A stretch of DNA of 64,000 nt from Actinostola sp. cb2023 (Eukaryota > Cnidaria > Anthozoa > Actiniaria > Actinostolidae), in NCBI GenBank assembly GCA_033675265.1, contig JAUJYZ010001233.1, forward strand, positions 1 through 64,000. Direction: 5' to 3'. The notes under the pieces were generated by a model. The model searched no databases. It had not been told where the DNA came from and saw nothing but the letters and a program-made list of their open reading frames with translations. The translations under genes were made by a program, and so were the position numbers. Positions 8,544 through 58,330 of the stretch are shown here, in pieces. Numbering within the stretch: position 1 is the first letter of the stretch; every line of letters begins with the position of its first letter.

Positions 8544-9209
8544 CTATGTATTTGTTAATAAGTTAACTAGATGAAGCTTTTTACTTAAATTATGAACAGT
8601 AGCAAGTAATATTTCCCCTCGAGCTCTCAAAAATAAGAATTTAAATAGCCTAATATTTAACAACTGAAATAGATTCCTTTTCCCCGTGCGTCTGTACTCC
8701 TTCGCACCCGTTTTTAGTTCCGTGACGCAATGCTTTCTGAATCCGAGTCGTTCTAAAAGAGATATTAAATGTTGAAAGGCCACCCAGCAATCAAGTTCCG
8801 TGTCGGCAATGACTAGAAAATCGTCCAAGTATGCTAAAGTGGTCATATCTTTACGTAACATCATGCGCGTGATTGATTGAGTTATCCGGTGAAAAATTCC
8901 TGGCGACCGAGAGGCACCAAAGGGCAGCTTTGTGTCAATAAGATAAGAGTGATTTGAATCGCCTGAAAAAGTCCATTTTTAACCCGTAGCGGTATAGTTG
9001 GACGGGTGAATGGGAACATGACGATAGGCACTCTTCAAGTCGATTTTTGCCATAAAGGCTCCTGGTTTGATTAATTTAGATGCGCGTTCGACAGTTTCAT
9101 AGGCGTAATGCTCACATGCGGCATAAGAATTTACACTGACTCCCGCTGGGCGACTACAGTCATGTATTAATCGAATGTCATTGCTGTCTTTCTTGGGAAC
9201 CGCTCCCAA
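8544..9209 (-). pseudogene. Broken reverse transcriptase of a retroelement (DIRS/Ngaro-like?)
   Basis: Two minus-strand frames cover the palm of a reverse transcriptase. The upstream frame (9209-8979) has GAVPKKDSNDIRLIHDCSRP and then AKIDLKSAYRHVPIHPS, the motif-A region. After a frame change near 8975 the next frame reads LPFGASRSPGIFHRITQS and reaches YLDDFLVIADTE, the catalytic YxDD motif. The family's connection and RNase H regions are not recognisable after about 8700. This RT style, together with the gag-like ORF upstream, recalls tyrosine-recombinase retroelements (DIRS/Ngaro group), but no recombinase is seen and other retroelement classes are not excluded. It is dead as it stands: at least one frameshift and truncation. 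Confidence 0.75.
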
Positions 9210-13771: not shown

Positions 13772-15871
13772 ATTCTCTCAATGTTCATGCTTACCGCCTC
13801 TAATGTGTTTATGCTGGAATCCCATCATACAGACAATCGCCCAAAGAGTATTTGCATAACACGTCATCAAAAGGGCTGCAGGTGCACCAATGGCGTCACG
13901 TATAACAAAACTGCGAAGTGTAATGTTAGTCACGTGACCGATGTTTCCAAATACCTTGTTGATCCGCGAGTTGTCCAGAAACTGTGAATAGAGCATTTTC
14001 AATTTCTGGTTGTAGTCTTCAATTTAATTTCTTTCGTATTCTGAAGAATCTAGTGAATTAGACTATTCTCACCTCAAGATACAAAATGCTTTATTTGTAC
14101 CAAAACTTTTTTACATATATAGTTATACAACAAATATCACTAGACCAACCTGCCCCCTTGTCTGATTGTCTGATTATTACTGTCGTTCACAGTGACCCTT
14201 CTTGGAATAACATCGAAGTGATTCCCTCAAAGGCCTTTGTAAATGTTTCCCGCCTTCTTACTCTGTAAGTAACTATCTCTCTTCACGTAATTTATTTGTT
14301 TTGCAGGCAATTCATTTATAGTGTAGAAACAGCTAAAGTTATATGTTTTAAATATTTAAAAATATTTTATTGGATAGGTCTTTGGCATCCAATCGAATAC
14401 ACACCATAAGTGGAGAAGCATTTTATGGCTTGACCAGACTAATGGAATTGTAAGTTTTCTGTGCTTCGTTCTATTCATTATCTACCATGGATACCACCAG
14501 CTATCCAACCTACTTCCTTATATGGTAAAAATGAAATTTAATCCTCCCTTGTATTTACTGGCTTGTTTCGATCTTCTTTTTCCAAGGAATCTCAATGATA
14601 ATAACTTAAAACAATGGGACACAAAACACATCGAGAAGCATCTACCGAATCTGAAAGTCTTAAAGCTGCAACTCAACTATAACTTCCTGCCTGAAGAAAA
14701 CCTTCTTTCATTGCCGAACTTGGATACTGTGGATTTCTTACTTTCTAATGTTATGCATCGCAGAACGTTTTTCTTGAATTGCATTCTGAGTCGAAACAGT
14801 TCACAGATATATGACCCACTGACTAGCTGGCTTGTTTTAAATCCCAAAATATCACGCCTTGCAGGAGGTTCATACTGTGATGCTCACAAACTAATGGATA
14901 TGCCTGATACGCTTTTAAACATTACTTCTCGAACTCACTTTAAATTCATGTGCAGGGTTTTAACCATATATAATAAAAAGGCCAGAAATGTGGAAACAAA
15001 GGCAAAGGGCTGGTACACAATCACATCCTCCAATACATGTTGGGACACCATCAATAAGATTCATATTCTGCTGACGCTGATTATCGGTATTTTTGCCATG
15101 ATGTTCAATCTTGTCATTATCATCACTACTCTAAGAAGCAAAGTTCTTCAAGATTCGGTTGCACATGTATTAGTGGCCAATGTGGCTGCAGGAGACGTGT
15201 TGTACACACTTTACCTGATTATAATCACAACTACGAGACAAAGTATGACCAGCGAAGAATTCTATCGTTTCTACTTACCTTATTATTGTAGAATCGTTGG
15301 TGCCTTTCTTCTGATTGGATTGTTCATCACCCCATTTATGACGTTTATGATGACGTTAGAAAGATATTTGGTTATAGTATATTGCATGAAACCTAACGTA
15401 AGACTCACTATGAAACACTGTTGCGTAGGTTTATGCTTGGGATGGTGTTTAGCAGTCTGTTTCGCTATAAGCTTTATGAATTCAGAACACTTTTCCATGG
15501 AGACAGATACTATGTGCGTGCCTTTGTCAAACATTGACAGACAAGACATTGTTCGACTCTCCGTGATCTCGATTGGCATTTTGTACATCGTTTGCACATG
15601 TTTATGTTGTCACATTTACATAGATGTGAAAAGAACTACTGAGAGAACAGAACAGTTCCAAAGAGAAAGCCGTGGTGCACGTAGAATTGCACTGATAATG
15701 TTTACAAATGTGCTGTTTTGCATTCTACCATTGGTTGCTACTGCAGTCATTACATTCTCCACGCTCGTCAACGTATCAGGGAAGGACAAGCTTATTTTCT
15801 GGAGAACTTGTACAGTTACATGTTTTGGCATGAATTCATCAGTTGTTGAATCCTATCTTATTTTCGTTTAG
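13772..15871 (+). CDS. LRR-containing GPCR (LGR/relaxin-receptor-like), frameshifted at TM7
   Basis: Four exons are readable: 13772-13983, 14193-14264, 14378-14449 and 14587-15871. The introns all interrupt the codon after its second base, and exons 2 and 3 are exactly 72 bp, the one-repeat-per-exon pattern of LGR receptors. Exon 1 carries a cysteine-rich cap (CITRHQKGCRCTNGVTY). Exons 2-3 and the start of exon 4 encode leucine-rich repeats. Exon 4 then encodes seven hydrophobic helices starting at INKIHILLTLIIGIFAM, with LERYLVIVY after TM3 (DRY-type position). The frame stops at 15871 inside TM7. One base over, the sequence reads LNPILFSFRNELF, the expected NPxxY-type motif and helix 8, ending at 15947. 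So a single-base shift near 15845 breaks the receptor: a pseudogene, an allele or an assembly error. The true start exon is not identified. Confidence 0.8.
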
Positions 15872-16790: not shown

Positions 16791-17445
16791 TAAGCTCTAT
16801 CTTGAAAACATTGGCCCAATTTTTTCAAGTTTCACCCGTGAGATAGCGTTGTTCATTAATCCATGTAAATCTTTGTAATATTTTGAACTGGCTGTGGAGT
16901 GACCATTTCGAATTAGTCTTTGGACATCCTCCATTAGTCGGAGGATAATATTTTGAGTATTATTGGACAATGAGGGATGATAATGAGAGTTGTTCAACAA
17001 CCAAAACAAATTTTCATGGCGGCCGTCGAAGCGGCAGTGGAAGGAGAAGACTTTATAAGTCAGTCAAATAAAGAAATAGAGACTACCAGAAGACACACAG
17101 CCGTTGATGGTTATCTGCTGCAGTTTCTACATCCTGTAACAGAACTAAATTTCGTACTCATGAGAAGCCGCAGCCCTTGGATACCGCCAACTTGGTCATT
17201 TCAAATGACCAAGTTACGCCACAGGGAAACTACACATACAATAGAAGTGTGAACAGAAGTAATTACGGATCTGAGATAATATGAGAAAGACATGTCATCG
17301 CCTCGTGTTAGAAGATTGCCATACTATTTACAAACTGAATTGAATTTAAACCTGATTACTATTTAAGCTTACATGATTTACTAACGCATAGTCAATTGTT
17401 GAAACAATATTTCAAAAGAAAATCGTCGGTGCTTGGTGATATCCA
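16791..17445. other. Spacer left of the kinase gene
   Basis: No gene recognised. It contains an exact palindrome at 17189-17215 (AACTTGGTCATTT, one base, then its complement). Confidence 0.45.
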
Positions 17446-18738
17446 CTAAACACTTTGCGTGTCATTTAAAATACTGTCAAACGTATTCAAAATATTGGCA
17501 ATATTGGGTCTTGTAATGCTCGAGGTTGCTGTGGTGGCTTGAATAATCCTTGACAAACACTTTCCAAAGCTTCGTTTATCTACACACGACTCTAACATTT
17601 TCCCCAAGGAATATACGTCGCTTGCGGTGGTTTGTTTATAACCGGACCTCACTTCCGGCGCAAGGTAGAGAGCATTGGATAATCGTTTGCGTTGTTTTGC
17701 TTTGTCTATTCTTCTGCTCTTACCGAAATCAATAATGATAGCCCGTAAATATCCATCGTCATTGCACTGTTCAAGAAGTACATTATTCGCTTTTAAATCA
17801 TTGTGCAAGTATCCTTTAGAGTGAATATAATCTAAAACTTTGCAAATGTCTTTAAATACTAAAATTGTTTGCCTCTTATCCAACCTTTTTTGGTTACAGG
17901 CCCTTTGGAGAGTAAGGCTTTCTTTTCCTATCCCATGAAACTGTAACACGATGGAATAGGGTGCTTGATTTGGACATACTCCGAAAAGAAGCGGTAAACC
18001 AGGATGATCTCCTAGATTATGGAGAACTGCAGCCTCGTGAAGCGCTTCTCGCCTGCATCTTTCTTTCTCTGTAGTGGAGTCGCGCATCTCCTTCATTTCC
18101 TTTACTACTACTTTTATTCCACGATAGCTTGCAAGGAAACAATTTCCAAACGTTCCACAGCCAATTGGGACATCAGAGAGCTTAACAATCAGGGACCTGT
18201 TAATCTCGCGTATTTGGTTGGAAACATTCCTTGAATAATCTCTCTTCCGGGAACCACTATTTCCTGTGATTACATGTTGATCTTCTCGCGAATATTTCTC
18301 CAAAGGCTCACTCTTTCTTTGAGTACTCTTTTCAGTCAATCTTGAGGGAGGCCCATGTTTATCACATAAATTCGAACATAAATGATGTTTTTTCTGTTTA
18401 GCTAATTCCACCATTTTTTTCCCTCTGCTCTCCATTTTGAGACTGACGTTTTGAACTTTGGTGACATCTTTAGGGTTTTGTGCACTGCATGGATTTTCAA
18501 GCTCTTTGCATAGTATAGAGGTTCCCCCTTGTTTTTGTACTTCGTCAACTGCGCTTGGTTCACGAACCTCAGACGCATAATCCAAAGGCGTCTCTTCAAG
18601 ACCGATACTTCGCCACAGTTTCTTCTTCCTCCTTTCTTCTACTTTATTTGCTCGATTCCTCTTCTTCCACTCCTCCTTTTGCCTTTTTTTCTCTTCTTTA
18701 GAATGCGGACGAGATTTAAAATTCCGTCCTTTCGGCAT
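17446..18738 (-). CDS. Single-exon protein kinase, lysine-rich N-terminus
   Basis: An intronless 430-residue frame from a true ATG at 18738. Residues 1-45 are highly basic (KEEKKRQKEEWKKRNRANK), a possible nuclear or nucleolar signal, followed by a low-complexity linker to about 185. The kinase domain spans roughly 186-425: glycine loop GCGTFGNCF at 193-201, catalytic lysine in VVVKEMK (K213), helix-C glutamate near 231, catalytic loop HNDLKANN at 312-319 (D314, N319), DFG at 337-339 and APE at 360-362. All catalytic residues are present, so it is probably active. The usual HRD arginine is asparagine (HND), which removes the basic residue that normally contacts an activation-loop phosphate. 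The absence of introns, unlike its neighbours, suggests a retrocopy origin. It is divergently arranged with the zinc-finger gene 314 bp away. Confidence 0.88.
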   Translation of the reverse strand: MPKGRNFKSRPHSKEEKKRQKEEWKKRNRANKVEERRKKKLWRSIGLEETPLDYASEVREPSAVDEVQKQGGTSILCKELENPCSAQNPKDVTKVQNVSLKMESRGKKMVELAKQKKHHLCSNLCDKHGPPSRLTEKSTQRKSEPLEKYSREDQHVITGNSGSRKRDYSRNVSNQIREINRSLIVKLSDVPIGCGTFGNCFLASYRGIKVVVKEMKEMRDSTTEKERCRREALHEAAVLHNLGDHPGLPLLFGVCPNQAPYSIVLQFHGIGKESLTLQRACNQKRLDKRQTILVFKDICKVLDYIHSKGYLHNDLKANNVLLEQCNDDGYLRAIIIDFGKSRRIDKAKQRKRLSNALYLAPEVRSGYKQTTASDVYSLGKMLESCVDKRSFGKCLSRIIQATTATSSITRPNIANILNTFDSILNDTQSV

Positions 18739-19052
18739 AATGACTGCTTTCCATAAGCCTGCATTACAGCCGGAGTGAAATTCGAGCTAGTAGCTCGACT
18801 GTACGCACCACTGAAGATACTAAGGGTGGTTGGGTGGGTTAACGGAAAAATATTTATAAAAGCAATCGGTTGAATCCCGTATATTTGCGCAAAACTTTTG
18901 TTCCTTTAAACCAGAACTCCTGATTTAAAGCGGACTACGTTTTCTTCGCTGACATAACCAGAAAAATAGAAAAAAATAGAAATATATATTTGGGGTTTCA
19001 AATTACGTAAATCAATGTTGTTGAGAGCATCCTGTTACAGTGTTTGGTAGAA
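18739..19052. promoter_or_regulatory. Shared 5' region of the divergent kinase and zinc-finger genes
   Basis: The two start codons face away from each other across these 314 bases, so promoters of both genes must lie here or in unseen 5' exons. The word GCCTGCATTACAGCC near 18758 resembles the end of the MITE at 28291-28447. No specific promoter motif can be assigned with confidence. Confidence 0.4.
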
Positions 19053-20216
19053 ATGGCTGCAACTCTGTCTACCAAGTGTCCCTCGTGCCATCGACTTTTT
19101 AAAACTTACTATATGCTAAAAAAGCATGCTTTTCAGCGACACCAAATTTTAGAAGAAAATCTAGTTCCTGTTTTCAAAGACTCCGAAGGAGAAAGAGTAG
19201 TCATTCCAGACAAGAAAGAACTTTTAGGCGCACAGCACGTGGCATATATAGCATGGCTTGCTGGACTAACCGAGAGGATAATCTCGGTATTCCATCCACG
19301 TTTACCAGGTACATACAAATAATTTACACACATTACTAAACAAGATATCTAATGAGATACAAAGTGTGAAACATCGCTTGTTTTCTTCTAATATATCTGA
19401 AACATCAATTTTAGATTAGAATCGCATCCAACAAGGACAACACAATAATTTCAGCAAAAACAGTTGTATTTTAGCATGTCTAACATTTTGCATCTCATTA
19501 GATATTTGTATAAATGTATACTACAACGTTTCTGCAATTGAGTGTATATATACTATTTACATTTAGCCATACTAACTGCACACAAGTCACACATAATAAC
19601 TGTCAAATGTCAACCATTTTTAATAAATGTCACAGACATAAATAATAATTAAAATATGTTCTCAAAATTTGTGGTAATTTATTGAATATATTTTTTTAAA
19701 TACTTATATCATTATATCAAACACATTTTTTTTGCACTAGGAAAATGGATAAGAATAGACTCCCAGCAGGTTCCAATCATCTACTTTCAGCATTTCATCT
19801 GGAAAATGAGTGCAGTCATTAACTCTGTCAGGGTGATGCCTCACAGGGCACAACCAGCATATCAAGGGTCTACTAAAAAAATATCCTACAAATTATTTGA
19901 CATAGAGCTATTTTGGGATGCTCTGGAAGAGCAATCAATTGTTCCATTTACCAACGAGGCACTATTTGCTGGTAATGAACAATGTAATGACGACACTGAA
20001 GTACTTTCTGTTGAAGAGGAAATTGAGCGTGCCAAACAACAATCAAGAGAAGGTCTAAGAAGAAAGAGATCTTCTTCGAAATCATCTTTAATTGTTGGCT
20101 ATGGGGAGGGTCGAGCTACCCGAGAAATTGAGCTAATCTGGTGGCCAAACCTATACCGTCTAACCAACCATGGCCGCCTTGTAATCAGAATATACATTAG
20201 CAAATGTGAATTTTAG
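19053..20216 (+). CDS. Two-exon C2H2 zinc-finger protein, function unknown
   Basis: Exon 1 is 19053-19308 and exon 2 is 19741-20216. Donor CCAG-GTACAT and acceptor TTTGCACTAG join in frame, giving 243 residues. One canonical C2H2 finger sits at residues 9-30 (C9, C12, H25, H30; sequence starting CPSCHRLFKTYY). The middle is mixed and hydrophobic (AQHVAYIAWLAGLTERII; VPIIYFQHFIWKMSAVINSV). Near the end is a basic serine-rich stretch, RRKRSSSKSSL, a possible nuclear signal. A single finger would hardly give sequence-specific DNA binding alone. Its position inside the candidate 16.5-kb element, head-to-head with the kinase and tail-to-tail with the transposase-like gene, makes an accessory role possible; that is inference. 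The last 35 codons may be read-through of an exon if a further exon exists. I do not recognise the family. Confidence 0.7.
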
Positions 20217-20273
20217 ATACTATATTGAAAACGTTGGGTCAACTTTCATTATAATTATCCTTCCGCTGCTTAA

Positions 20274-20841
20274 AGGGGGACTAGTCCTGACGAATATCAT
20301 TCAAAATTTAATTTAGCCAAAACTCCATAGAAAAAAATATTCAAGGGCCTAGCTTATAATCACTAGTTAAAATTTTTCTCAATATTCCAGAGGGAAGTAC
20401 TATATGTTTATGAATCTTTAAAGGTGCAAGTGACATCACTTATACTCAACCCAAACTCGTTCCATACATTTCTTTGTATTTTGTGATCAAAATATCTGAA
20501 TGGTTTGTTCTGATAACAGCTCTGCATTGAAGAAAACTGGTCAAACATTCAATCCTAAGCACATATAAGATAAGAAAACAAACTCCTTCACACAAATGTT
20601 TAGCTTCATATAAATAAAATAATTCAAGACATTAAACATGAAGAAATGTACGAAGCAAAACCGTGTTGATTGTTTGGGTTGAGTACGTGACGTCACTGAC
20701 ACCAATAGATTCATAACAATGTAATACTTCCCATTGGATGTTTGAGAAAAAAATTAACCAGTGATTGTATGGGTCTTTGAGATTATTTCAGTGAAGTTTC
20801 AGCTAAATCAAATTTTGGACGATTGATGTCCTAGTCCCCCT
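20274..20841. mobile_element. TTAA-flanked MITE with AGGGGGACTAG ends
   Basis: Both tips read AGGGGGACTAG immediately inside TTAA (20270-20273 and 20842-20845). The inverted arms extend about 130 bp with recognisable pairs such as CAAAATTTAATTTAGC with CAAAATTTGATTTAGC. No coding capacity. TTAA flanks point to a Kolobok- or piggyBac-type mobiliser. Confidence 0.8.
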
Positions 20842-21011
20842 TTAATTGATATACATGTAGCTACACAATATTCCATGCCAAGAAAGAAGACGAAATGCAT
20901 AATAAGGTAACCAACCAATCATAATAACAAACAAGATTGACATTATTTTAAATGACATCACTAAAATCAATCTCTTGAAGCTTTTTTATAATCTGTTATT
21001 GACTTGTTTTA

Positions 21012-21185
21012 ATAGGCGATTTCCATGTTGTTTTACTACAACTACCAGAATGCTTCTTTCTTATTCAGATTTGTATTCCCTCATGAGAATAGTAAGACAA
21101 TTGGTGCTAATTATCTAACAAAAGAAAATGGGCAAAAGATTCTGGTACTTGTAGTCAAACGACGCCATCATGGAAATCGCCTATA
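21012..21185. mobile_element. Small TA-flanked MITE
   Basis: TAGGCGATTTCCATG at the left and CATGGAAATCGCCTA at the right are exact inverted repeats; inner bases (GTAGT...CCAGAAT) also pair. Mariner-like by its TA ends. It lies 3' of the transposase-like gene. Confidence 0.75.
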
Positions 21186-21256
21186 GTTAACACGACGAAG
21201 CATCTTCATTATGCATTTGTTCAATTTCTGACTTATCTGCATTTGGACTTATTTAC

Positions 21257-21513
21257 AGTGGAGCTACACAAACCAAGGCCACCCAAAAACATTTCAACAC
21301 AAATTATCCAATGATCATGTTTGAGTATTTGAACAATATAATCTGTACACATTTGCCTGAAATGTTAACTCCCAATAATTATTATTGTGTATTTACGTTC
21401 AGATGATTGTTAAAAATTTGTACAGATTCTATTGTTCAAATACTCAAACGTGATTGGATAATTTGTGTGAAACTTGTTTGGGTGGCCTTGGTTCATGCAT
21501 TGTAGTCGCACTG
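21257..21513. mobile_element. Palindromic MITE, ~100-bp arms
   Basis: TTACAGTG...AACCAAGGCCACCCAAA at the left recurs inverted at the right, and the arms continue through AATTATCCAAT and GTTTGAGTATTTGAACAATA. The loop is about 50 bp. No coding sequence. Confidence 0.8.
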
Positions 21514-21812
21514 TAACACTTTTATATTTATGCATTCGTTTGACCAATGAGCAAAATCATTGATCATTTGTATTTTAGAGTAAACTGTTTTATGTACAGT
21601 AGTTACATTTGTACATGTAATATTAGACTAAAACAAGAGTCTTTCATTCTCCTCAACAATTTAAATGTACAGTGGCAGCTCAATTCTTTTGAAACCCACT
21701 AATTTTCATACTTGCTATATTTACAAAATATTTATGTACAGTTCAAGTTAGAAAAAAAATTGTATAGTTTTTCTCAACAAATTTTGCTGTCAGCAAATAG
21801 CATTTACAAATA

Positions 21813-24800
21813 TTAAACATTATTATTTGACTGACCTACAGTATTATTTCTCCAATCAAAAACAAGAGCCATCAATTCTTTTCTTAATGCTTTCATGTTG
21901 TCAAACTGCCAAGTGAAGCATGGTAAGACATCACAACTGTTTGCTATGTCTCGGATTGAGAGAATCACCCCAACACCACAGCTGCTCGAGCCTTCACCAG
22001 TCTTGGTTTGATTGGGCATGTTGAAACGGGGCAAAGGCAGATTTAACTTTGGAGAGTTCCACATGTCTTCCATAAATTCTGTGCCATGACTTAGTTCATT
22101 AAACCCAGCTAGCATGTTTTTAACCACAGTCAGGGTCTGTCTCCTTGGATTGATCTTCATGCCATCATCAAAATAGACACATCTTGTTTTGGTGTGGAAG
22201 CAAAGCATTCCCCAGTGGTCTCTTGTTTCATAGTGTATTGGAGTGACTATGAATGTGGCATCATCAATAGAACAGCGTGAAAAATAGCCAGCTACCTTTC
22301 CTTTAAAGTAAAGTGCACCTTGTTTGGCCCATGTCTGACTGTATGTTGGTAGGTAAATGGTTGTACACTTACTGACCTCTATCAATGTCAAGCATATTAC
22401 ATCTATTGTGAAGCTATTTAGGTACCTCTCACCAACAAGAGTACTAAAATCACTGACATCCATGATGTACAATCCATGCCTTAGTACTTCACTTTGAGGT
22501 TTTGCACTCATTAATAGCTCTTTAATTTCAAGGTCAGAAGGCTCTGCTAGCCAGGCTTCTTCTTCTTTGACTTTGACTGCCAAATCAGCAAATTTGCAAG
22601 CTTTCTTGAATAGCTCTAATGATTCTCTGGTAAATACCCCGAGATTAGCTATGCTTATGGCAATTATTTTGCTGTCGTTCTTGTCATCATCATCATCATC
22701 ATCATCACTATCCATATTTGCTCTTTCGGAAAGTAAGTTCAGGGCATATAGAACAGAGCTCTCACAAAGACGGACAGTAACTTGTGAAGGGTTTGTCAAT
22801 GATGAAGGAGTGTGTACAACAACAACATCTGATTCTCTGAATTGCTTAGATACTTTAGGGAGCTGTAGCATGGACACTTCTCCACGGGTAAGAGTACAAG
22901 AGATACTATTCAAATTATTTACAATTGCACTAGAGCTGCCTTTATTTTTGTTATTCCTGCAGTTGGGTGTTTTTTCTTTCTTTGTTGTATTCACACTTTT
23001 ACCAGGGGTAACTTCATTCTCCTCATCAATGGTGCAGTTGAATTTGGATTCCTTGTCGTTGAGGTGTTGTGGAACATCGAGGATTTTATCCCAATCACTG
23101 TGGCTGTAGTCCAATAATGGCAACTGATCGTCTTTGAGAACACAATTCTTCTCTTCTGTATATTCATACTGACATGAATCGGGACCAAACAAATCACTTA
23201 ATAGTTTGTCCATTTCAAACATCCACTCCTTGTCCTCTTCTGTCCAAGTAACATTCTTCTTTGCCCACCCACAACCTCGATAAAAGAACGGTTTACCTTG
23301 GATAATAAAATATAACATTAATGAGCAATAATTTATTATAAATTTATTGTATTATTGGAAGGTTATAATTACAACCATTATCGTTGAAATGCGACCCTGA
23401 AAACGACAATGCTTTCAGAGAAACTCCAGTCTAGAGGGCCATCAATCAAACTAGCTTTGCTACATGTATGATTGCCTAAATTCTGGACACGCCCATGTTG
23501 TTTGATTGACGTCTGACTATTTTCAAACCTGCCAAGCTGTTTTGAAGGTCACACTTCAATGATAAACGGTTATAATATATATTTCATAATATCTAATATA
23601 TACAGTAATCTAGTTTCATTATTATTATTAATTTTAATAAGATCAAATTCGGCAATAAGTGATAGTTATAGATTAGCTTTTTGATGTAGCTTTGAACTGA
23701 TGTAACCTGAAGTTGGAATAAAGCCTTTACTACCATATCATCCGAGTAATATAACATACATGTATACAAGCATCAAGAGTTCCAGACTTCCGGTAATATT
23801 ACAAAGGAAAAGTGAGCACCAATTCTAGACACAGGGAGCCCAAGCTATGTAATATTCTCACAATGCATTGCGGGCGTACGGGAAGTCTGGAACTCTTGAT
23901 GCGTGTATAACAGCATCATTTTATCCACTGGATAAGGATTTATCCAATGATAGCACTATCCACCTAGCTTTCATGCAACTGGGACCTGATGTATAAACTC
24001 ACTCTAATAGACCTCTATTAGCTTTGTATGTAAATTGCCCATTTCAAACCATGTGATGTAAACATGGTGTTCTCTGGAAAATTAGTCCTTTCAATATGAA
24101 TGAATAAATTTCAGAAATATAAAGGAACAATAATTCTCCAGAGAACACCGTGTTTTAATACATCACATGGTTTGAAATTGGCAATTTACATACTGTACGA
24201 AGCTAAAGAGGTATATTGCCAGATTAGAAGCTGGGAAATACAAACTTTTCATACCTTCTGATGCACAATGCAGAGCTTCTCTAAATGACAGTCTTAGTTC
24301 AAGCAGTGTCTCAGTGTATAAGTGAGTGAGGATTTGGTCCACTGAAAATAGACAAGTCATGACAGTTATAAGCACTAAAGTTTCACACATATATTGTAGT
24401 ACCGGGTAATATCTTGTTTGTTTTTGTTTTTCTTATTTTCAGTTTGACTGTTGTTTTTTGTTTCATTTTGTTCTCAAATTGGAACTACACGTACATGTAT
24501 ACTGTACAATGTACTTACATGATGTGGTATAGCCCTTTGAATCATGGGAGGTAGCTTTCAGGTAGAGCTGTCTTTGGAGCTTGTGGGAAGCTTCAAACCC
24601 TTGATTAGAAAAGCGGCGGAAGGATCTGTGAACTCTCATCAGCATCGGAGCATGTTCCACAGTCAAGTGACCATAATCCCCAGTCCCTAAACTTTTCCCA
24701 AACATCTCACAGAGGAGAAACCCCCATTCTTTACACTAGCAGAAAAAAAAACATTCAACATTAAAACTTAATTTGTCAAAAAATATGTATCTTGCAGGGG

Positions 24801-27800
24801 AAAAAGAACAACAGTACTACTGTATTATATTTATAGTTACAATACCTATAAATTACATTATAATGATCAAGCAAAAGAGCAGCTGTTATTACAATGTGAA
24901 CACTCGAATATATATATATATATATTAATATAATTAATATATTAACTGTGCCAATGACATCGTATTAAATTTTCCTTCACATTATCTAATTACATTATTT
25001 AATTATATACAGTCATTTGCAAAAATTCTGGCCGCTACGAAATATCAATATATCAATAATCGGGTGCATTATGGGTAATTAAATAATAGAAAATTCCCCT
25101 TAAAGCAGGTTAACGCCAGCAAAGTTGATATAAATATTTAGTATAATGCTTATTTTAGTCATACGTTTGTTGTTTGTAAGCTTTGCTTCACTTAATAAGA
25201 TAGGAAACTCAAAATAGTATTATTTAATTACCCATAATGCACCCGATATATTGATATATTGTGGCGACCAGAATTTTTGCAAATGACTGTATAATATAAT
25301 TCAGGTGAAGTTCACTGGTGAAACCAAGTTAATTATTAATATTTATATATATATAAATTATCGATTGAACAACTAGATCAGAAAAATGATTTATTTTGAT
25401 CACTAGTTAGAGGTTAACACCCTTTTTGCTCATGAGTTATCGGGATTTACCTGCACAAGCTCACTAACAATGAACAAGAAATTTAAATACTGCACGAGGC
25501 GTAGCCAAGAGTGCGAATGAGAAAATTTCGAGTTCATTGTTAGTGAACGAGTGAAGGTAAAATCCTGATAACTCACGAGCAAAAAGGGCGTTAACATTTT
25601 TATTATTCAATTTGAATACATTGCGGAGGCAAGCTAGTAACTAATACTATATCGTGGAGTAAAAGCACCACGATCATGACCATGTCATAACCACGCGTCA
25701 CATGGTACAAATCAACCAATCAGAATTTTTACAGTGTAGTGTCCACACTTTAAAAACTAAAAAATGATTTGTACATGTCATTAGGATTAATTATTTGTCA
25801 AGACAACAGCATGCAAGTACAGACTTGTGTGTGGGATAAATGCAATTTTATCCAAAAATCACCTTGAGATCAAAAGAATCAATGAAGTGTTCTTCTTCTG
25901 GTGCATATTCTTTTTTCCTCATAATTTCTGCTATTTCCTTCCAGCTGGTGCAAACCTATATATTACAAAACCAATAATTTTATTAATAACTGCAATCTAC
26001 AAAGTTGTCAAATTAATATTCAATTTGAATAATTTTTTTATTATTTCTTTTTTACACCTATACATTGTTGTACTGTTCCAGTTTTACAGTGTAAACACTT
26101 GGATTTTGAAGACTTTTTTGTATTTGCATACATAATAATGTGTAAATGTTATTTAATTCATTTCTCTCATCACTTTTTAGTATTTTTAGCATTAGACTAA
26201 TACCCCATTCACACCAAACCTTGTTTAGTGAAACTAAGTTTATTCTCGCTTCTCTAATTCGAGGGCATTTAATTCCACAAGAATCAAACTACCTGGAAGT
26301 TATACTGTGTAACATAAAGGACAGTTTACTAGCAGTTTTGTGCCAAAAGTGTCATGGTGTTTGCAGATAATTGTCTAAACCTGTTTAGTTAAACCACCTT
26401 AGTTAAACCACCTTAAACCATGTTTAAGCCTTGGTGTGAATGGGGTTTAATACATGTACTATAAACATAATCAAATTAAGGTTTTCCAACTTTATGAATA
26501 TACCTTGGTCATAAACTCTTTAGTTATTTCGGCTGCAAATAGACTTAGTTCTTCATTTTCCACTGCAGCTTTCATTCCACGTCTGCGTCTTTTTACAGCA
26601 ACAGGACCATACACTTCTTTGAATTTGGCTTCAATTTCCAGCCCTTTGGATTCCCATGACTTTTGAAGTTCATTAATCTCATCTGCTACAACTAAGCCAA
26701 TATCGAAACCCCCAATGTAACATTAGATTCACTGATTTATCAGATCATATTAAATTTATATTATTTGCAAACCCAACCTGTTTATTAGATGTTTTTGTAA
26801 AGCATTATAATAATTATTTACCTGATCCGGATAATGGAATCTCCTCAAGTTTTGTCCCAAAATCTCTCACAAAAACTTTACTGTCCAACATTTCAGAGTA
26901 GTACTGTACAAAAAAAGGAAATGTACATGGTAGAAAATGAGGCTGTATCAATCAAATATACCAATAAATGTTGTGTGCAACATTTGAGTGATTACAGTCA
27001 AGTTCCTCTTCTTTACAGTCAAACCAGGTCACGCGTGCCCCCCTAGAGTCCATTATTGACTTTGTTATTTGAAAATTGATTTGATTTTTCGTTATGAACT
27101 TCGAATATTGCGAACGAACATTTCAATATTCAAAACAAGAATAATTTGAAAATTCGATTGCTGATTGGATTAATAAAACAAACGTTACCCCTAATATGGG
27201 CAGACACACATGCAGCCCGTACGGGCTACATACATGTACATCATGTGTGTCTGCCCTTATTTGGGGGGGCACGCGTGACCTGGTTTGACTGTAAGACTGA
27301 CCACAGGATTAAAGGGATTAATTGCCCCATACTGATAGCAATATGATTGACATGCTTAGGGGTATGCCTGTATTATTTTAGTTACAAATAGATAATCATA
27401 CAGTGTACTCTAGATCAGATTATCATTGCATGTGTCATCTCACAGCCACGCATATCAAATTTGGTTGTCATTTTACTTTACATTACAGTATGGACACTCA
27501 AACTGTGAACACTACCAGATCCAATCAGATCATTATTATCCGAACTTTTCATATCATAATCTGTCAGATATGAAACATTCAAATTGAAAAAAACAACAAC
27601 ATTGAAGTGTTCACGGTGTTTGAGTGTCTACACTTATGGTACATCTATGTTTGACTGTTACCACAGGCAAACCACAGTGATAAAGTGACATTTTCTCTAA
27701 AAAATACCAAATGATAAACATGTTTTAAAATATTTTAGCCCGAGTAAAAATGCACCATTGTTCCCCACCCTCCCCCACTGCATTTACTCGGGCTAAAAAT

Positions 27801-30800
27801 TATTAAAACGCATTTCATTCGGTATATTTTAGAGAAAATGTCACTTTATCACTGTGTTTTGCCTGTACTGTCACTGAGCTATGAATGAAAAAAAAATACA
27901 TATTTACCTTTTGACGAACTTTACAAAATATTAGTTTATTGAGAATGCAATTTTTTGCTGCATCAATGGGCTTGAAGTGGGCCACAAGCTTTTCCTGAGG
28001 CAAGGATTCTTTGACAATATCTTTAATATCTTCCAGCATTTGCCGTTCAGTGCTGCCTAAAACAAAATAATTATTAATTAATGTTAGTAAAACTTGTGTG
28101 ATTGCATGAACATTATTTTATTTCACAGACAAATTACCAAGGAACTTAACAATCAATAGATCTTTTATTTATACTTGTGTGTACAAAAATGTATGTATTC
28201 AAAATACAAACTTATATCACATCAGTCCATTACTTGCTTGGAAATAATAACAACAACTTCTCATTTGTTCTGTAGCTTATATAATTAAAATATAGCCTGC
28301 ATTACAGCCAAACTACATGTACATGTAAACACTTTAATTGTTACGTCTGTCTGGAAATTAGCGCCAGAACTAAGGCTTTGATTTTAGTACGCAATGTTAA
28401 TTGGTTGTTAGAAATGAATGTTTTGTTTGGCTGTAACGTCAGGCTATAGATTATGGGACAAGTAATTTTTACCTGAAAAAGAGGAAATAGACATATTGTT
28501 CCTTTCAACAGCTGTTGTCTGCCCAGATTTCAACTTTGTCTTAATCCTATCACCTCTGACATTTTCTGGTCCATATTCTTTTAATTTATTGTTGCATTCA
28601 TCAAGGGATCCAATTTTGTAGGCCATGAGTCCTACACTTTTTAAAATCTGTTCTGTGTTACGCATCTCACAGTGGAGAGCACACAGACACATTGAAGATA
28701 TGTCCTCATCAAGAATACAGGTAAGATCATCTCTTATGCCTTTGAATCTAAATACAAATGTAGGATCATATTGTTACATCATAGTATAACAAAAAGAATG
28801 AAAAACTTAATTTATTGAGAATGCAAAAATGTATGCTCTCCTCATTCCATAGCTTACTACTTACACTTGGAACTTATGAAACTCTTAGCCTATTTGAATG
28901 TTAAACTTGTGGCTTAAGGTACAAAAAAAAAAATGTATGTAATACTATATGTAAATGTATGTGTGTGCTACATGTACATGTTCATTGTAGCTTATTTGTT
29001 ATGTGCAGTATATCAAAATTGTTCAAAATATAACATACCCTCCAATGTTTGCTTTGGTGTTAACAAAGTGCTCCAAACATAGCTCATGTATTCCCAAATC
29101 ACAGTCACATGCCTATGATAAAACAAAATTCAACAATCTAAATTTAAATGGAAATTCAATAGCATCAGAGGAGCAGAGGATAGACATGTATGTACATGTA
29201 TTATACTGTATACAGCTTATTTGGCTATGACGTGAGCGTCCATTGAGTTATGGATGCACGCTCGCGCATGCTAATTAGCCAATCAGAGCGTGCATTATAT
29301 CAATGCTATGTTATAAATTTTGCTTGGTGTCTTGCACGTGAGTATATAGTTTAGCTTAAATTACCTGTTTTGTAATACAATCCGTAGAGTCTAAAATAAT
29401 ACATTCCATATCTAACAATATTGAGATCACCTTCTTTAATTTGTTTCTCACCCTAACAGCCTCACAGAAAATACAAAACTCTACATTAAGGCCACGTCCT
29501 CCCAATTGGAACTTGTCATCTTCAGCTTTTGCAAGAAGCAATGTCAGTCCTTTGTAATCAAGGGTAACTGGGAAAACCAAAGTGTAGTTACTGAGGAACA
29601 ACCATTTTATCTAGCTATCCCAACCAACAAACTATATCACTGACAGTGATTAGCTTAAATCAAATGCTATGTAATTCATAGTTATAATGAAATCTAGCTC
29701 ACAAAATCACAGGCGTGCCACCCAAGTAATTCTGTTGCAAAACATTGCACTTAGGAGTCTAGATTATCATTACTGTATGCTTATCAAATGCTATGTAATT
29801 CATAGTTATAATGAAATCTAGCTCACAAAATCACAGGCGTGCCACCCAAGTAATTCTGTTGCAAAACATTGCACTTAGGAGTCTAGATTATCAATATTAT
29901 TATAAGTATTATTTATTGCATGCAGAGTTAGATCATATGAAGCAGTGGTTGCATGCATTAAATGTTCTTACTTTTGAAAGATACATCATATTTAATACCA
30001 TCCACAATGATACCATCTCTCTTTAGTGTATCTTTCTCAGCATTCAAAGACGAAAACAAAATTTTTAAGTCCTTCCTAGTATATTCAAGATAGAAAAACA
30101 TAGAGTGATCAATGTTTGTACAATAATTATTATCTTGAGTGTATCGTACTGGCATCATTAATTATTATATTTATTCCATTTTCATATCTTTTTAAACTGA
30201 CCTTTCTTCGTCACAATTAGCAATAGCTAAAGTGTATACTGACTTCGCACTTTGAGTGGATCTGTGGAAATCTACTGGTACTACACCAACAGAAACTTGA
30301 CTTTTGCCTGAAATCAATTAAAAGTATCAGCAAGTGCTTTTTATTTTATTTTATCTCAAAATAATATTAAATGGGTAACAAATGAAATCCTTTGTTTTCT
30401 ACTGTTCAGCTGGTTTTATCTAGTACACATTATATATACAGCACTACAGTATTGCTATAACTGTTTCATGCTTTTAGTACATTCAATCTAAACAACCAAA
30501 TAAATAAGGAAGCATAATTTTATTTACCAAAAAATGGGCGACCATCAACTTTAAGATTGAGCACAAGTTCCTTGGGAATCTGACCATGCAGTCGCATCTC
30601 CCTTGCTATCCACTGGACTATACATCTCAGGTTAACTCTATAACCAGGAGTAGCTGGGTCAAGCTTTTCAATTCCTATGAGCTTTCTTGTGACATTGAAA
30701 ACTCCCCTTCTCAAAGCAACCATATTGTTTTTTAATGGCATGATTGGCTCATCGGTTTTTTTCTAGGAGGATATAAATAAGCATATATTACATATTACAA

Positions 30801-32421
30801 TAAATTAATATTACATAAAACTAACAACATAGAAAATACAGTCAATCAGACAGCAGAGTTGCTATTGCATATATATATACAGCTTATTTGATGGTTTGAC
30901 AGATAATATTCGTGGATATTTTACGAGTTGTGTAGTATTTTCCCGAGGCCGTAGGGCGAAACAAATATGAGCAATATGAATAAAATGCCCGCAAATATTA
31001 TCTGTCAAACCATCAAATAAGGGGTTTATTATTCCACAATAATTACTGATTTCCTTTCTTTCTTTCCTGAAGTTTTTGGGCCATTTTTCGCTATGTTTTT
31101 CGTGCGCGCCGAGCTACTGTGTAATACGCTGGCATATTTTGCGTGTTCTCTTGCCCTTACATGTACATGTATATGGTAAAATGATGCACGAGTGGAATAA
31201 TAATCCACAGTATTCCACTCTTCCTTCCCACAATGCATTGATGTGATATGTTTCTTTGTTCTAGTATTTTCTATGGTGTGACAGACATGAATTATGTAAT
31301 GGTTTTGAGTTGTATTAATATACAATGTACAATAAATAATTGTAAACTTAATTTAAGTTTCTAGACTTTCTTACCCCTGAACGTCCAAGCTTTGTGAGAT
31401 TGGTCATTTGTTGCCAAGCGTTGTCTGACAATCTTGCTTTCAATTTAAATAAGAAATACACCCAATCTGGCGAACGCATGGACTGGATTCTTTCTTTCCA
31501 CGTTTCGTCTGGAATCAATCGTTCACATGCCTCCTTTACACCAACTTCACTGGCTAAATGAAGGAACACATTGTGAATGTGTGATATAGCGCTGCAATCG
31601 CCTTCGTCTTCCCCTTCTAACAGACAACATTCCCCAAGAACGGCGCCCAAAGACTCTCCTTTCGCTTCGCAGAGTTTCGACAGCTGGTCGAGGGTTGAGC
31701 TAGCGACCTCCAGGCTTTTCTTTTTTTTTATGGAAGGAGATAAGTCGGGATCCTTCTTTATTTGGTCGAGGGTTTTTGGCGGGCTTTTGGTTGGCGGGCT
31801 TTTTGAATTAGATGGTGTCGAAGGTGGTGTATCTGGAAGAGATGAATCTTGCTCTCTCTGTCTTCGAATTTGTACTATTTCTTTAGCAGCCAAGCTGAGC
31901 TGCACTTCTAGAATGGAAACTTTGCGTTTCAAGTGAGCGACTTCGTCTGCCTCGGTCTTAGAAGAGAGCGCGCCAAAACCCCTTGAGTTTATCTCCGTTA
32001 CCAGCGAAGTGAATACATCTGTACGGAGAAATTCGCATTGCTCCAATGACTTTAGGCGTAGGATGCCAAGAAGCAGCCCGAACGGAGTTGCAACATATAC
32101 CTTTCCGGACTTGCAGAAGTTGGAAAACCACTTGAATGATGCAGGGGCGCCATGTTCATCGACAAGATCCTCGAGGTTTACGGCTCGATATTCGTCTTCA
32201 AAATATCTCGCTGACGTGGTAGAACAAAACGTTCCTGGTTTAGAGCAGCACTGCGATGAATTAACCGCATACCAAGTCTTTGTGTGGCATAACTTTAAAG
32301 AAAAGACTTGTTTTGGTGAAAGCACTGGAGAGCCAGAACTAGTCCTTTTCATCGTTCCATCGAGATTTGGCGCGATTGTAATCATAGATGCTTGCTTTAT
32401 ACTTTTCAAATTAGGCGCCAT
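21813..32421 (-). CDS. 14-exon protein: RAG1/Transib-like DDE core plus Ulp1-like protease
   Basis: Exons (minus strand): 32421-31375, 30762-30528, 30307-30202, 30075-29972, 29567-29365, 29112-29039, 28747-28473, 28056-27908, 26903-26822, 26685-26504, 25955-25863, 24735-24519, 24341-24255, 23296-21813. Every junction is GT-AG and phases match; the total is 4338 nt, 1445 residues. Residues 1-349 hold a coiled-coil stretch and a proline/serine-rich linker. The core has D422 (LKVDGRPF), D501 (LDYKG), CxxC at 529/532 (CIFCEA), ALHCEMRN at 613-620, HxxxxH at 873/878 and E898 in SNQGFEASHK. In mouse RAG1 the corresponding zinc and catalytic residues are D600, D708, C727/C730, H937/H942 and E962, so the order matches and the H-H-E spacings (5 and 20) are identical. 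The C-terminus (about 1230-1430) has H1312 (HWG), D1328 (YFDD) and C1391 (SSSCGV), a C48/Ulp1 triad; an acidic run precedes it. CMC-type transposases share some zinc motifs and are the main alternative. The model is strong; function is inferred. Confidence 0.85.
23360..23580. mobile_element. MITE in an intron of the transposase-like gene
   Basis: TTATAATTACAACCATTATC at the left pairs with GATAAACGGTTATAATATA at the right, with internal pairing TTGAAATGCGACC with GGTCACACTTCAA. It lies between exons 13 and 14. Confidence 0.6.
23762..23912. mobile_element. MITE in an intron of the transposase-like gene
   Basis: Inverted ends TATACAAGCATCAAGAGTTC and its complement, continuing through CAGACTTCC / GGAAGTCTG. 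About 29 bp per arm. Confidence 0.75.
24026..24192. mobile_element. Palindromic MITE overlapping the intron after exon 13
   Basis: GTATGTAAATTGCCCATTTC with CATGGTGTTCTCTGGA on the left; TCCAGAGAACACCGTG and GAAATTGGCAATTTACATA on the right. Arms of about 55 bp. Confidence 0.75.
25009..25291. mobile_element. Mariner-type MITE in intron 11 of the transposase-like gene
   Basis: TACAGTCATTTGCAAAAATT on the left and its exact complement on the right, with ATTACCCATAATGCACCCGA pairing further in. Ends start with TA as in Tc1/mariner elements. Confidence 0.8.
25411..25605. mobile_element. Palindromic MITE in intron 11 of the transposase-like gene
   Basis: GGTTAACACCCTTTTTGCTC and its near-complement GAGCAAAAAGGGCGTTAAC form the tips; AGTTATCGGGATTTACCT pairs with AGGTAAAATCCTGATAACT. 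Confidence 0.75.
26200..26448. mobile_element. MITE with CCCCATTCACACCAA ends
   Basis: CCCCATTCACACCAAACCTT on the left; TTGGTGTGAATGGGG on the right, with TTAAACCA-type internal repeats. It lies between exons 10 and 11. Confidence 0.75.
27016..27294. mobile_element. MITE with 30-bp perfect ends, TA-flanked
   Basis: TACAGTCAAACCAGGTCACG, followed by CGTGCCCCCC, is matched exactly in inverse at 27265-27294. It lies between exons 8 and 9. Confidence 0.85.
27489..27632. mobile_element. Short inverted-repeat element
   Basis: GGACACTCAAACTGTGAACAC at the left pairs with GTGTTCACGGTGTTTGAGTGTC at the right. It lies between exons 8 and 9. Confidence 0.65.
27648..27880. mobile_element. Palindromic element abutting exon 8
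   Basis: Left arm GGCAAACCACAGTGATAAAG and TGACATTTTCTCTAAAA; right arm the complement with small differences; the inner pair TTTTAGCCCGAGTAAA / TTTACTCGGGCTAAAA is exact. The right end is 28 bp from exon 8. Confidence 0.8.
28291..28447. mobile_element. MITE with TATAGCCTG ends next to exon 7
   Basis: TATAGCCTGCATTACAGCCA at the left and its near-complement TGGCTGTAACGTCAGGCTATA at the right. It ends about 25 bp from the exon 7 donor. Confidence 0.75.
29659..29894. repeat. Recent tandem duplication, 124-bp period, in intron 4
   Basis: The segment from ATCAAATGCTATGTAATTCA to TTAGGAGTCTAGATTATCA occurs twice with no visible difference over about 110 bases (starting near 29659 and 29783). It is very young, or an assembly duplication. 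Confidence 0.9.
30888..31021. mobile_element. Palindromic MITE in intron 1 of the transposase-like gene
   Basis: CTTATTTGATGGTTTGACAG with ATAATATT and its exact complement at the right end; loop of about 70 bp. Confidence 0.8.
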
Positions 32422-33240
32422 TTCATGAAAATATATCCTTATAAAGGATAATCCAATTTTAAACGTTAATATTCTACATTCAGAGCTGGTCAAATTCAAA
32501 CCCGTGTACAGTTGTACATATTCTTGTTATTCAGTGTACGCCATATTGTATTTAGTGAGCAACCGCTGGTCATTAAAACGCAGTAGCGACATTCCTTGAA
32601 AGTCGATACAGTATTTTGATTAATTATCGCGGACTGCTGCTGGGCTGACTAGCATAAAGGTGTAACAGCAAATCGGATTAACTAGCGCGTCTTTAGCAAC
32701 GTTGGATTCACGCTGGGCCAAAAAATCCAACGCTGCGGCTTCTCATGGGATATCGTTCAGACGACTCATTTGCCCTTCCTCTTCTTACGATAGAGGAGCG
32801 ACTGATCTCGAAGGATAGTCTTGCATGGACAACCACGCGAACTCTCAGTCGTTCTGCGTGAACATATGTAGTTTTTCAGGTGCATGGTTCATTCGTCTAT
32901 ATAGTATAAAGGAAAAAAAACAAAGAAAGGTCATCACCTGATAGTGGCATAACTTACTGACTGGAATGTTGTTCGAAAGTAAATTCACAACATCGATCAT
33001 TTCAATTGAAAATTATAAAAAATATCCTCACCTCAGTCTGTTCACTCCATAGCTTATAAAATCGTCTATATGAGACTGTTAGCAGGGAAGAAGCTTGCAG
33101 ATAGGTTTTAGAATTCCGATAATCACGCTGAACATTCACGGCGGCAAAACATCACGCTTGAACTGTCAAAGTTTTACTGTGACATCGCATGCTAATTTAT
33201 GCTAATTAGAAAAATATGGCACTTAGTGCGCAGACTCCCC
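32422..33240. other. 5' flank of the 14-exon gene
   Basis: No coding frame is recognised. It must contain the promoter or a non-coding 5' exon of the gene starting at 32421. No specific element can be named. Confidence 0.4.
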
Positions 33241-34558: not shown

Positions 34559-34579
34559 GTTAAATAGCATAGACTTTAA

Positions 34580-35892
34580 CTGGCTGTCTCTTTAAAAACC
34601 TCTCAGTCGTTTTCGCTTCTAAAATAAATATCTCCCAAACTCTAGCTAATGAAAGACTATATCAAGGTTATTACTAAAACGGGTTTGGTTTGCTTCAAAA
34701 TATTTTTTTTTATTTTTTATTTTTATTTTGAAATGATTCCGTCTGAGAGCTGGTCAAGAGGTCAAATTTGCATGAAATTATGCACTTCTTTACGGCGCTG
34801 TACAAACTTCGTCTTGCATTATGCAGCGAAACGTTTTATATCATGTTGTAGATAAATGTATCTAGTTTGTCTAGAGGTAAAGCGTTATTATCGGTTCAGC
34901 CGTTTATGAGAACATTAGTTGATAATTAACCCCACTAAGATCTAACTGAACGGCGGCTCAAAATTACCCAACTTTACTCGATTATTTTGCAAAAGTGGCA
35001 CCTCGCTGGACTCTCTCATTGACACAATCGGATTGAACATCATTTCATTTACACAAATCTGTAAAAACCTGTGTACGTTTTGGATATTTCAAAAGTTACG
35101 ACAATTTCAGTTGGTGCATGTTAGACGATTTACGAATATTAATTAGGTGCAATATCTCAGATATCTTATCCATATGAAGTTGAAAACAGCTTACCTCCTT
35201 CCTAAATCGCTCATGTTTCCCATTTTACCCATGCTAGACTTCATTCCAGGTCAACATTTCCAAATACAGCGATTTAGGAAGGAGGTAAGCTATTTTCAAC
35301 TTCATATGGATAAGATATTGCACCTAATTAATATTCGTAAATCGTCTAACATGCACCAACTGAAATTGTCGTAACTTTTGAAATATCCAAAACGTACACA
35401 GGTTTTTACAGATTTGTGTAAATAAAATGATGTTCAATCCGATTGTGTCAATGAGAGAGTCCAGCGAGGTGCCACTTTTGCAAAATAATCGAGTAAAGTT
35501 GGGTAATTTTGAGCCGCCGTTCAGTTAGATCTTAGTGGGGTTAATTATCAACTAATTTTCTCATAAACGGCTGAACCGATTGAATAACGCTTTATCTCTA
35601 GACAAACTAGATACATTTATCTACAACATGATATAAAAAGTTTCGCTGGATAATGCGAGACGAAGTTTGTACAGCGCCGTAAAAAAGTGCATCATTTCAT
35701 GCAAATTTGACCTCTGACCAGCTCTCATACGGAATCATTTAAAAAAATTAAAATTAAATAAAATAAAAATATTTTGAAGCAAACCAAACCCGTTTTAGTT
35801 TTAACCTTGATATAGTCTTTCATTAGCTAGAGTTTGGGAGATATTTATTTTAGAAGCGAAAACGACTGATAGGTTTTTAAAGAGACGGCCAG
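34580..35892. mobile_element. 1.3-kb near-perfect palindromic element, copy 1
   Basis: Flanked by TTAA (34576-34579 and 35893-35896), with tips CTGGCTGTCTCTTTAAAAAC and its complement. Each arm is about 640 bp, the two arms are nearly identical, and the loop around 35215-35265 is only about 55 bp. Short open frames inside are incidental. A second copy lies inverted at 42816-44097. Confidence 0.85.
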
Positions 35893-35920
35893 TTAATTAC
35901 ATTACACTAAAGCATGAATA

Positions 35921-52413: not shown

Positions 52414-52620
52414 TTGTCTAAATGGGGAATGCCGAATGCCATCCCCTTCGGAACAGAGGCTGGGAGGCTCTCTGGGAACTGGGGCTCTCCCAAGAGGTTG
52501 TTGGGAGTAGTCAACAACCGCCTCCCCGGAACTTGGGGTGGGGGGCGCCCAGGGCCCAGGGGCCCAGGGGCTCTTCCAGGGGCGGTGGTACTTGTCGACT
52601 TCCGACTATACTACTGAGGA
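52414..52620. other. GC-rich flank of the polymerase fragment
   Basis: High-GC sequence with GGGCCCAGGGG-type runs, continuing the composition of the polymerase island and ending abruptly near 52620. Probably part of the same inserted element. Confidence 0.55.
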
Positions 52621-57977: not shown

Positions 57978-58330
57978 GATACTGATATTACCATATATAA
58001 CCAACTATTTCGCTGGTGTATGGTAGTGATTTTATTATTGATTTTGATATCGGCCTATCCCATGAATTGTAAAATTAATGTTAATTCGCATATCGTAAAA
58101 CCACTGAATTTGATTGGCTGAAATGAGTTGTATATCGGTTACAAATAGCGTTACTATGGTGAATTGTTTCTATGGTAACATAATGTGTCACTGTGAGGTT
58201 TTCCGACAGCTGCACACCCAGTGCATGAGTTAATCTACGGTTTCATAGAGACGCAGGGTCAATTAAAGTTGCTCAGAGTGACGTAAATCCACAGGTAGCC
58301 CAACTATTTACTCTGAGTCTACCTGTATAA
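57545..58330. repeat. Left arm of an inverted duplication (GPCR 5' half and flank)
   Basis: Matches 59305-60118 in inverse orientation, covering the receptor from its start to TM4 and about 350 bp upstream (for example CCATGAATTGTAAAATTAAT and CCACAGGTAGCCCAACTATT). Confidence 0.85.

Follow-up and report, generated by a model that had tools for sequence, protein, structure and literature searches.

RAG1 is the textbook example of a transposase that became an immune enzyme. Its RING domain has ubiquitin-ligase activity, as described in passages of PMC4411706. According to sections of PMC7204232, the target-site duplication of RAGL elements is almost always 5 bp, and RAG1L-RAG2L pairs are known from three cnidarians. 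Sections of PMC12730594 characterize the CMCT group (EnSpm/CACTA, Mirage, Chapaev, Plavaka, ESTA) by C(2)C and H(3-4)H motifs between the second D and the E, CA..TG termini, and a 2-5 bp target-site duplication. There is also precedent for an Ulp1 protease on a transposase: in the passages of PMC2836005 on Ginger1 and some Mutator elements, a C-terminal Ulp1 or OTU protease is found in cnidarians such as Hydra, and the authors propose that Ulp1 has a role in transposition and repair. Here we analyze a 64,000-nucleotide stretch of the sea anemone Actinostola sp. cb2023 (contig JAUJYZ010001233.1, positions 1 to 64,000; hereafter the window), and we read its positions 17159-32747 as a large, recently mobile cut-and-paste transposon encoding a RAG1/Transib-fold core joined to an Ulp1 isopeptidase, a kinase, a C2H2-like open reading frame (ORF), and a further ORF (probability about 0.86).

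By analogy, this element appears to resemble the RAG1/Transib cut-and-paste transposons in mechanism. The likeness comprises the core fold, the DDE, CxxC, ALHC, and HxxxxH motifs in order, a body bounded by terminal inverted repeats (TIRs), and a second gene tail-to-tail with the transposase; the convergent companion genes occupy a position reminiscent of RAG2L in RAGL elements. The differences lie in the TIR, which begins CATGAGAA.. where RAGL and Transib have a recombination signal sequence-like heptamer; in the lack of a target-site duplication at the sites compared; and in the addition of a C-terminal Ulp1 domain and a kinase, while a Kelch/PHD RAG2 was not recognized in the scanned frames. 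Against the protostome RAGL consensus CACTW.. (as given in a section of PMC7204232), the first two letters of the window TIR alone agree. With the CMCT group, the element shares C(2)C, H(3-4)H, and 5'-CA..TG-3' termini, but it lacks the 2-5 bp duplication at the two sites compared. The Ginger1 core is Gypsy-integrase-like, whereas the core here is RAG1-like and is accompanied by kinase and C2H2-like ORFs. The initial annotation had called the architecture unusual; given the Ginger1 and Mutator precedents (passages of PMC2836005), architecture of this kind is not unique. Among the open-licence literature matches listed, none described a RAG1-like transposase fused to Ulp1 or a RAG1-like transposon with a kinase; an earlier description is possible, Repbase not being covered.

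Ends, copies, and insertion sites

The element is 15,589 bp long and is bounded by perfect 16-bp TIRs, identified by sequence comparison and a genome-wide 16-mer count:

17159..32747, no strand: whole DNA transposon, its ends common to other copies whose flanks differ
17159..17174, + strand: left TIR, CATGAGAAGCCGCAGC
32732..32747, - strand: right TIR, the reverse complement of the same 16-mer

Near-identical full-length copies at C430:121608-137136 and C736:310257-326524 match the window element at both ends, and a copy at C568:123750 shares the left end, the rest being truncated. Identity to the window element is 99.6-99.9% for C430, 98.9-99.1% for the long C736 pieces, and 97.4-97.5% for C568. 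Homology to C430 and C736 stops at window base 32747 and, on the other side, at 17159 (17155 in the C736 row). Across the 424-Mb genome, the TIR 16-mer has 7 occurrences, all at element ends: three copies carry it at each end, and the truncated copy carries it once. The reversed 16-mer, used as a control, has 0 occurrences. Exons 2-13 of the transposase gene are identical to the window in the C430 copy (12/12) and nearly so in the C736 copy (11/12). The 99% identity of the copies suggests that the window element moved recently. The initial annotation treated 21813-32421 as one gene; the gene is present, but it is an incomplete account of the locus, whose actual unit is the transposon.

The window copy interrupts a repeated 86-codon frame, whose uninterrupted or nearly uninterrupted relatives serve as empty sites. 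In four of the five examined (L050, L051, L052, L054), the flanks adjoin as ..CGTACT|GGATAT.. with nothing between (GAATAT in L051). The fifth, L049, is excluded as a clean site because of a rearrangement there, and L050 carries its own interruption further along. Because the flanks adjoin directly in these four relatives, the window insertion left no duplication and CATG is the element's own, which rules out CATG as a 4-bp target duplication. C309 provides the empty site for the C430 insertion; it likewise reveals no target-site duplication and rules out TA as a 2-bp duplication there. Neither the 5-bp duplication nor one of the CMCT type (2-5 bp) is present at these two insertions.

Another, diverged element lies at C1271:19520-39396 and has a near-copy at C592:359327-375172; the two are 98.7-99.6% identical in their main pieces. 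They end in CATGAGGAGCCGCAGA and CATGACGAGCCGCAGC, and no 2-bp duplication is seen at these ends. More widely, the exon with the ALHC motif matched at least 43 separate genome places (72 of 553 candidates scored, 80-row table). The 86-codon frame itself (MAAVEAAV...SRSA; window 17016-17158 and 32748-32858) has 82 genome match rows, the window's own included, and is another multi-copy element. The C430 flanks have a second match, at 78%, in C902.

The transposase gene

Recomputing the splice from the sequence reproduced the gene first proposed, with 14 GT-AG exons on the minus strand, 4338 nt, 1445 aa, and a single terminal stop; D422, D501, C529/C532, ALHC at 613, H873/H878, E898, H1312, D1328, and C1391 all fell exactly where they had been placed. 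The frame and GT-AG sites hold, but homologues indicate that exon 5 was overextended by 87 nt and exon 10 was two residues short. Six homologues (P0008, P0010, P0001, P0009, P0012, P0014) read ..RAC.. where the first splice adds 29 aa; because they do so and a GTGAGA donor closes exon 5 at 29452, the 87 nt are intron. In P0008 and P0010, exon 10 starts at 26691 (GSVVADE), which gives two more residues. The corrected coding sequence is 4257 nt including the stop and encodes 1418 aa, with D422, D501, C529/C532, H586 (ALHC), H846/H851, E871, H1285, D1301, and C1364 in the numbering used below. The features, all on the - strand and placed by splicing unless otherwise stated, are:

21813..32421, -: transposase-Ulp1 gene, 14 exons, 1418 aa corrected (splicing and homologues)
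31375..32421, -: exon 1, aa 1-349, N-terminal region common to homologues (also alignment)
30528..30762, -: exon 2, start of the RAG1-like core, putative first catalytic Asp D422 (also residue check)
30202..30307, -: exon 3
29972..30075, -: exon 4
29452..29567, -: exon 5, D501, C529, and C532, 87 nt shorter than first claimed (homologues)
29039..29112, -: exon 6
28473..28747, -: exon 7, ALHCEMRN motif with H586 (also residue check)
27908..28056, -: exon 8
26822..26903, -: exon 9
26504..26691, -: exon 10, start 6 nt earlier than first claimed (P0008, P0010)
25863..25955, -: exon 11
24519..24735, -: exon 12, H846, H851, and E871 (also alignment, residue check)
24255..24341, -: exon 13
21813..23296, -: exon 14, a single open frame holding the conserved core tail (RGCGW) and the Ulp1 domain
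21834..22544, -: Ulp1/C48 protease domain, H1285, D1301, C1364 (profile search against PDB, predicted structure, triad)

P0008 and P0010 are annotated fragments from Actinostola sp. cb2023 and are almost the same protein as the window product; P0008 differs from it by one substitution within the gap-free aligned part. Both end ahead of the protease, probably because the predictor set a splice inside exon 14.

The RAG1/Transib-like core

The predicted structure of P0008 matched the RAG1 fold among Foldseek chains, in agreement with the RAG1/Transib-like core originally proposed, and the residue check and alignment bore out the correspondence of the ALHC motif and H/H/E spacing with RAG1. In the best local hhalign alignment, H846/H851/E871 fall on RAG1 H937/H942/E962. 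The predicted model thus supports a RAG1/Transib-fold DDE core with D422, D501, and E871 as the putative catalytic residues and with CxxC and HxxxxH as candidate zinc-ligand motifs. C529xxC532 and H846xxxxH851 both lie between D501 and E871, as in the CMCT group. By sequence, the similarity to RAG1 is low (phmmer E 0.25; hhalign P 0.0097 and 0.0096). For scale, mouse RAG1 itself detects HzTransib at E 0.003 only. D422, D501, and CxxC were not paired with their RAG1 counterparts in the full-length local hhalign, and a forced global alignment gave nothing useful. No Pfam domain, RING N-terminus included, was called at E<=10 in the 1445-aa version of the product. A search of viral contigs gave 21 pattern matches, none of them a relative.

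The Ulp1 domain and its fusion to the core

The C-terminal C48 H/D/C triad reported in the initial annotation was recovered by the residue check, and both the PDB profile search and the predicted structure gave an Ulp1 fold. Pfam C48 was not called in the window protein (E<=10) and was called in 1 of 15 members of set A5 (E 0.0012). That core and protease belong to one gene, as had been claimed, is borne out by exon 14, whose 1484 nt including the stop form an uninterrupted frame that spans both the core tail (RGCGW) and the protease, and by the same core-Ulp1 fusion in three diverged gene models (P0001, P0004, P0007; 27-57% identity by segment).

In a core tree of 16 rows, three of which have under half of the columns, the window groups with Exaiptasia P0012 (99/98), and the set containing both also holds an Acropora protein (100/99). 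The deep fork places P0007 with P0003 (87/90) on one side and P0004, P0001, and the window (97/95) on the other. Since Ulp1-bearing members stand on both sides of this fork, the fusion probably dates far back among sea anemones.

Other C-termini were also encountered. In P0002 (Oculina) and P0006 (Paramuricea), the C-terminal 300 residues differ from Ulp1, share 37% identity with each other, and contain NTCPIDN, NGQHY, and YDG; they gave no PDB or Pfam match and, from the motifs by eye, look USP-like. If so, proteases of this sort would have been acquired by the core on more than one occasion. The Actinostola gene model P0005 has a PF21787 part, before about residue 430, joined to the core and is possibly a merged prediction. 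C48 (Ulp1) frames are numerous in the same genome (52 match rows, many of them within long open frames and some scoring equally), and these further frames perhaps belong to other Ulp1-bearing elements.

Companion ORFs

Three further ORFs lie between the left TIR and the transposase gene:

17446..18738, - strand: protein kinase ORF, 430 aa from the first Met (PF00069 E 5e-29; VVVK, HNDLKANN, IDFGK)
19053..19319, + strand: C2H2-like ORF (CPSC...H...H, by eye), matched at 7/7 other loci, 41-47% in diverged ones
19806..20216, + strand: 136-aa ORF, tail-to-tail with the transposase, matched at 7/7 other loci, 45-67% in diverged ones

The kinase is on the transposase strand; the other two, possibly exons of one gene, are on the opposite strand, tail-to-tail with the transposase. 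The 136-aa ORF gave no meaningful Pfam match, and it was among the Pfam-scanned frames in which no Kelch/PHD RAG2 was recognized. At all seven loci compared (C430, C736, C568, C180, C522, C592, C1271), the order and orientation of the three ORFs are kept, which is why we regard them as old parts of the element family. Four of these loci are diverged and represent three distinct elements, C1271 and C592 being near-copies; C330 was left out. The ORFs are 41-67% identical there, the kinase match covering 215-289 of 430 residues. The kinase is probably interrupted in C736 and C568, where its match is fragmented.

Proposed mechanism and alternative explanations

We suggest a plausible scheme for transposition. 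A transposase dimer would bind the 16-bp ends, and the element would be excised by RAG-like nick-and-hairpin chemistry; if the strand transfers were opposed rather than staggered by 5 bp, no duplication would arise. The Ulp1 domain would probably remove SUMO or NEDD8 from the transposase itself, or from host silencing or repair factors at the insertion, and the kinase may have the same host-manipulating role. Whether such elements form a new superfamily of multi-gene animal transposons, defined by the RAG1-fold/Ulp1-type fusion, a kinase, a convergent C2H2-like gene where RAGL elements have RAG2, and the lack of a target-site duplication, we regard as evenly balanced. If they do, the element would in effect bring its own tools for post-translational modification to the place where it inserts. 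A RAG1-fold transposase with the activity opposite to that of the RAG1 RING (removal of a ubiquitin-like modifier), together with a kinase, would make it possible to test whether such elements must control host modification in order to move, and duplication-free insertion by a RAG1-type enzyme would raise the question of strand-transfer spacing; the near-identical copies and empty sites make the system accessible.

Several results weigh against reading 17159-32747 as such a mobile element. Among the window, C430, and C736 copies, the reading frame is intact in the window only: exon 1 of C430 and C736, and exon 14 of C736 too, show one-nucleotide length differences. The C309 junction has one more T than the joined C430 flanks, so that either a base was lost at the C430 insertion or an indel separates the copies, and the C736 copy is flanked by TT on both sides. 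As for the core, the family profiles A2, A4, and A6 do not list RAG1 against PDB, whereas the single sequence does, at E 0.25. The core model was built on P0008 and not on the spliced window product, and it is moderate (pLDDT 64, pTM 0.59): 206 of 629 residues score below 50, the CxxC region among them, and superposition on RAG1 leaves a large root-mean-square deviation (6.7-8.5 A). The fold match itself came from re-examining the 1000 top-ranked Foldseek chains, and the protease model was built from 4 sequences, with a pLDDT of 60.

A family of host genes domesticated from a RAG1-like transposase, its mobility lost, would account for 13 introns with an intact frame and for a tree in which P0012 and the Acropora protein are placed as in vertical descent, although long-lived transposon lineages may also track their hosts. 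It would also fit the weak TIR signal obtained from the flanks alone (32.2 bits, a score that 1 of 20 shuffles also reached). Yet two near-identical full copies, each with TIRs, terminate at identical positions amid unrelated flanks, the truncated copy has the left end, and two empty sites contradict domestication for the window copy, so we hold it to be very improbable; the version without TIRs was rejected, the true TIR being the top row of the flank inverted-repeat search. Still less credible is segmental duplication, or haplotypes left uncollapsed. The 97-99.9% identity of the copies and their retained introns would suit it, but homology ends at the TIRs (to within 4 bases for C736), the flanks differ, and the empty sites contradict it.

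The placement of the core is a separate matter from mobility. There is an even chance that it falls outside Transib/RAG1 proper, either in a different CMCT lineage (EnSpm, Mirage, Chapaev, ESTA) or in one that is unnamed: the 5-bp duplication and RSS-like TIR of RAGL/Transib are absent, while the ALHC motif and the H/H/E spacing fit RAG1. To our knowledge, no structure of EnSpm, Mirage, or Chapaev has been solved, and for that reason the fold match cannot separate these from RAG1. With respect to the companion ORFs, the kinase and C2H2-like ORF could be captured passengers with no role in transposition, and the kinase match in pieces, probably interrupted, in the TIR-bearing C736 and C568 copies agrees with this. 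We think it unlikely, though, since conserved ORFs, order, and orientation at four diverged loci (three elements), with 41-67% identity, would not be expected of passengers.

Surroundings of the element

Elsewhere in the window, 49750-50475 and 50803-52605 (-) are long open frames with no Pfam match at E<=0.01, which may be parts of a large viral-like mobile element. A reverse-transcriptase fragment lies at 8547-8978 (-; PF00078 E 1.2e-8). Rhodopsin-type receptor frames are found at 14378-15868 (+; PF00001 E 4.5e-19) and at 55971-58004 (-; PF00001 E 2.4e-5, below the curated cut-off). At 34576-35896, outside the element, nested, nearly perfect inverted repeats of 268 nt (99%), 133 nt (95%), and 154 nt (92%) form a large hairpin.
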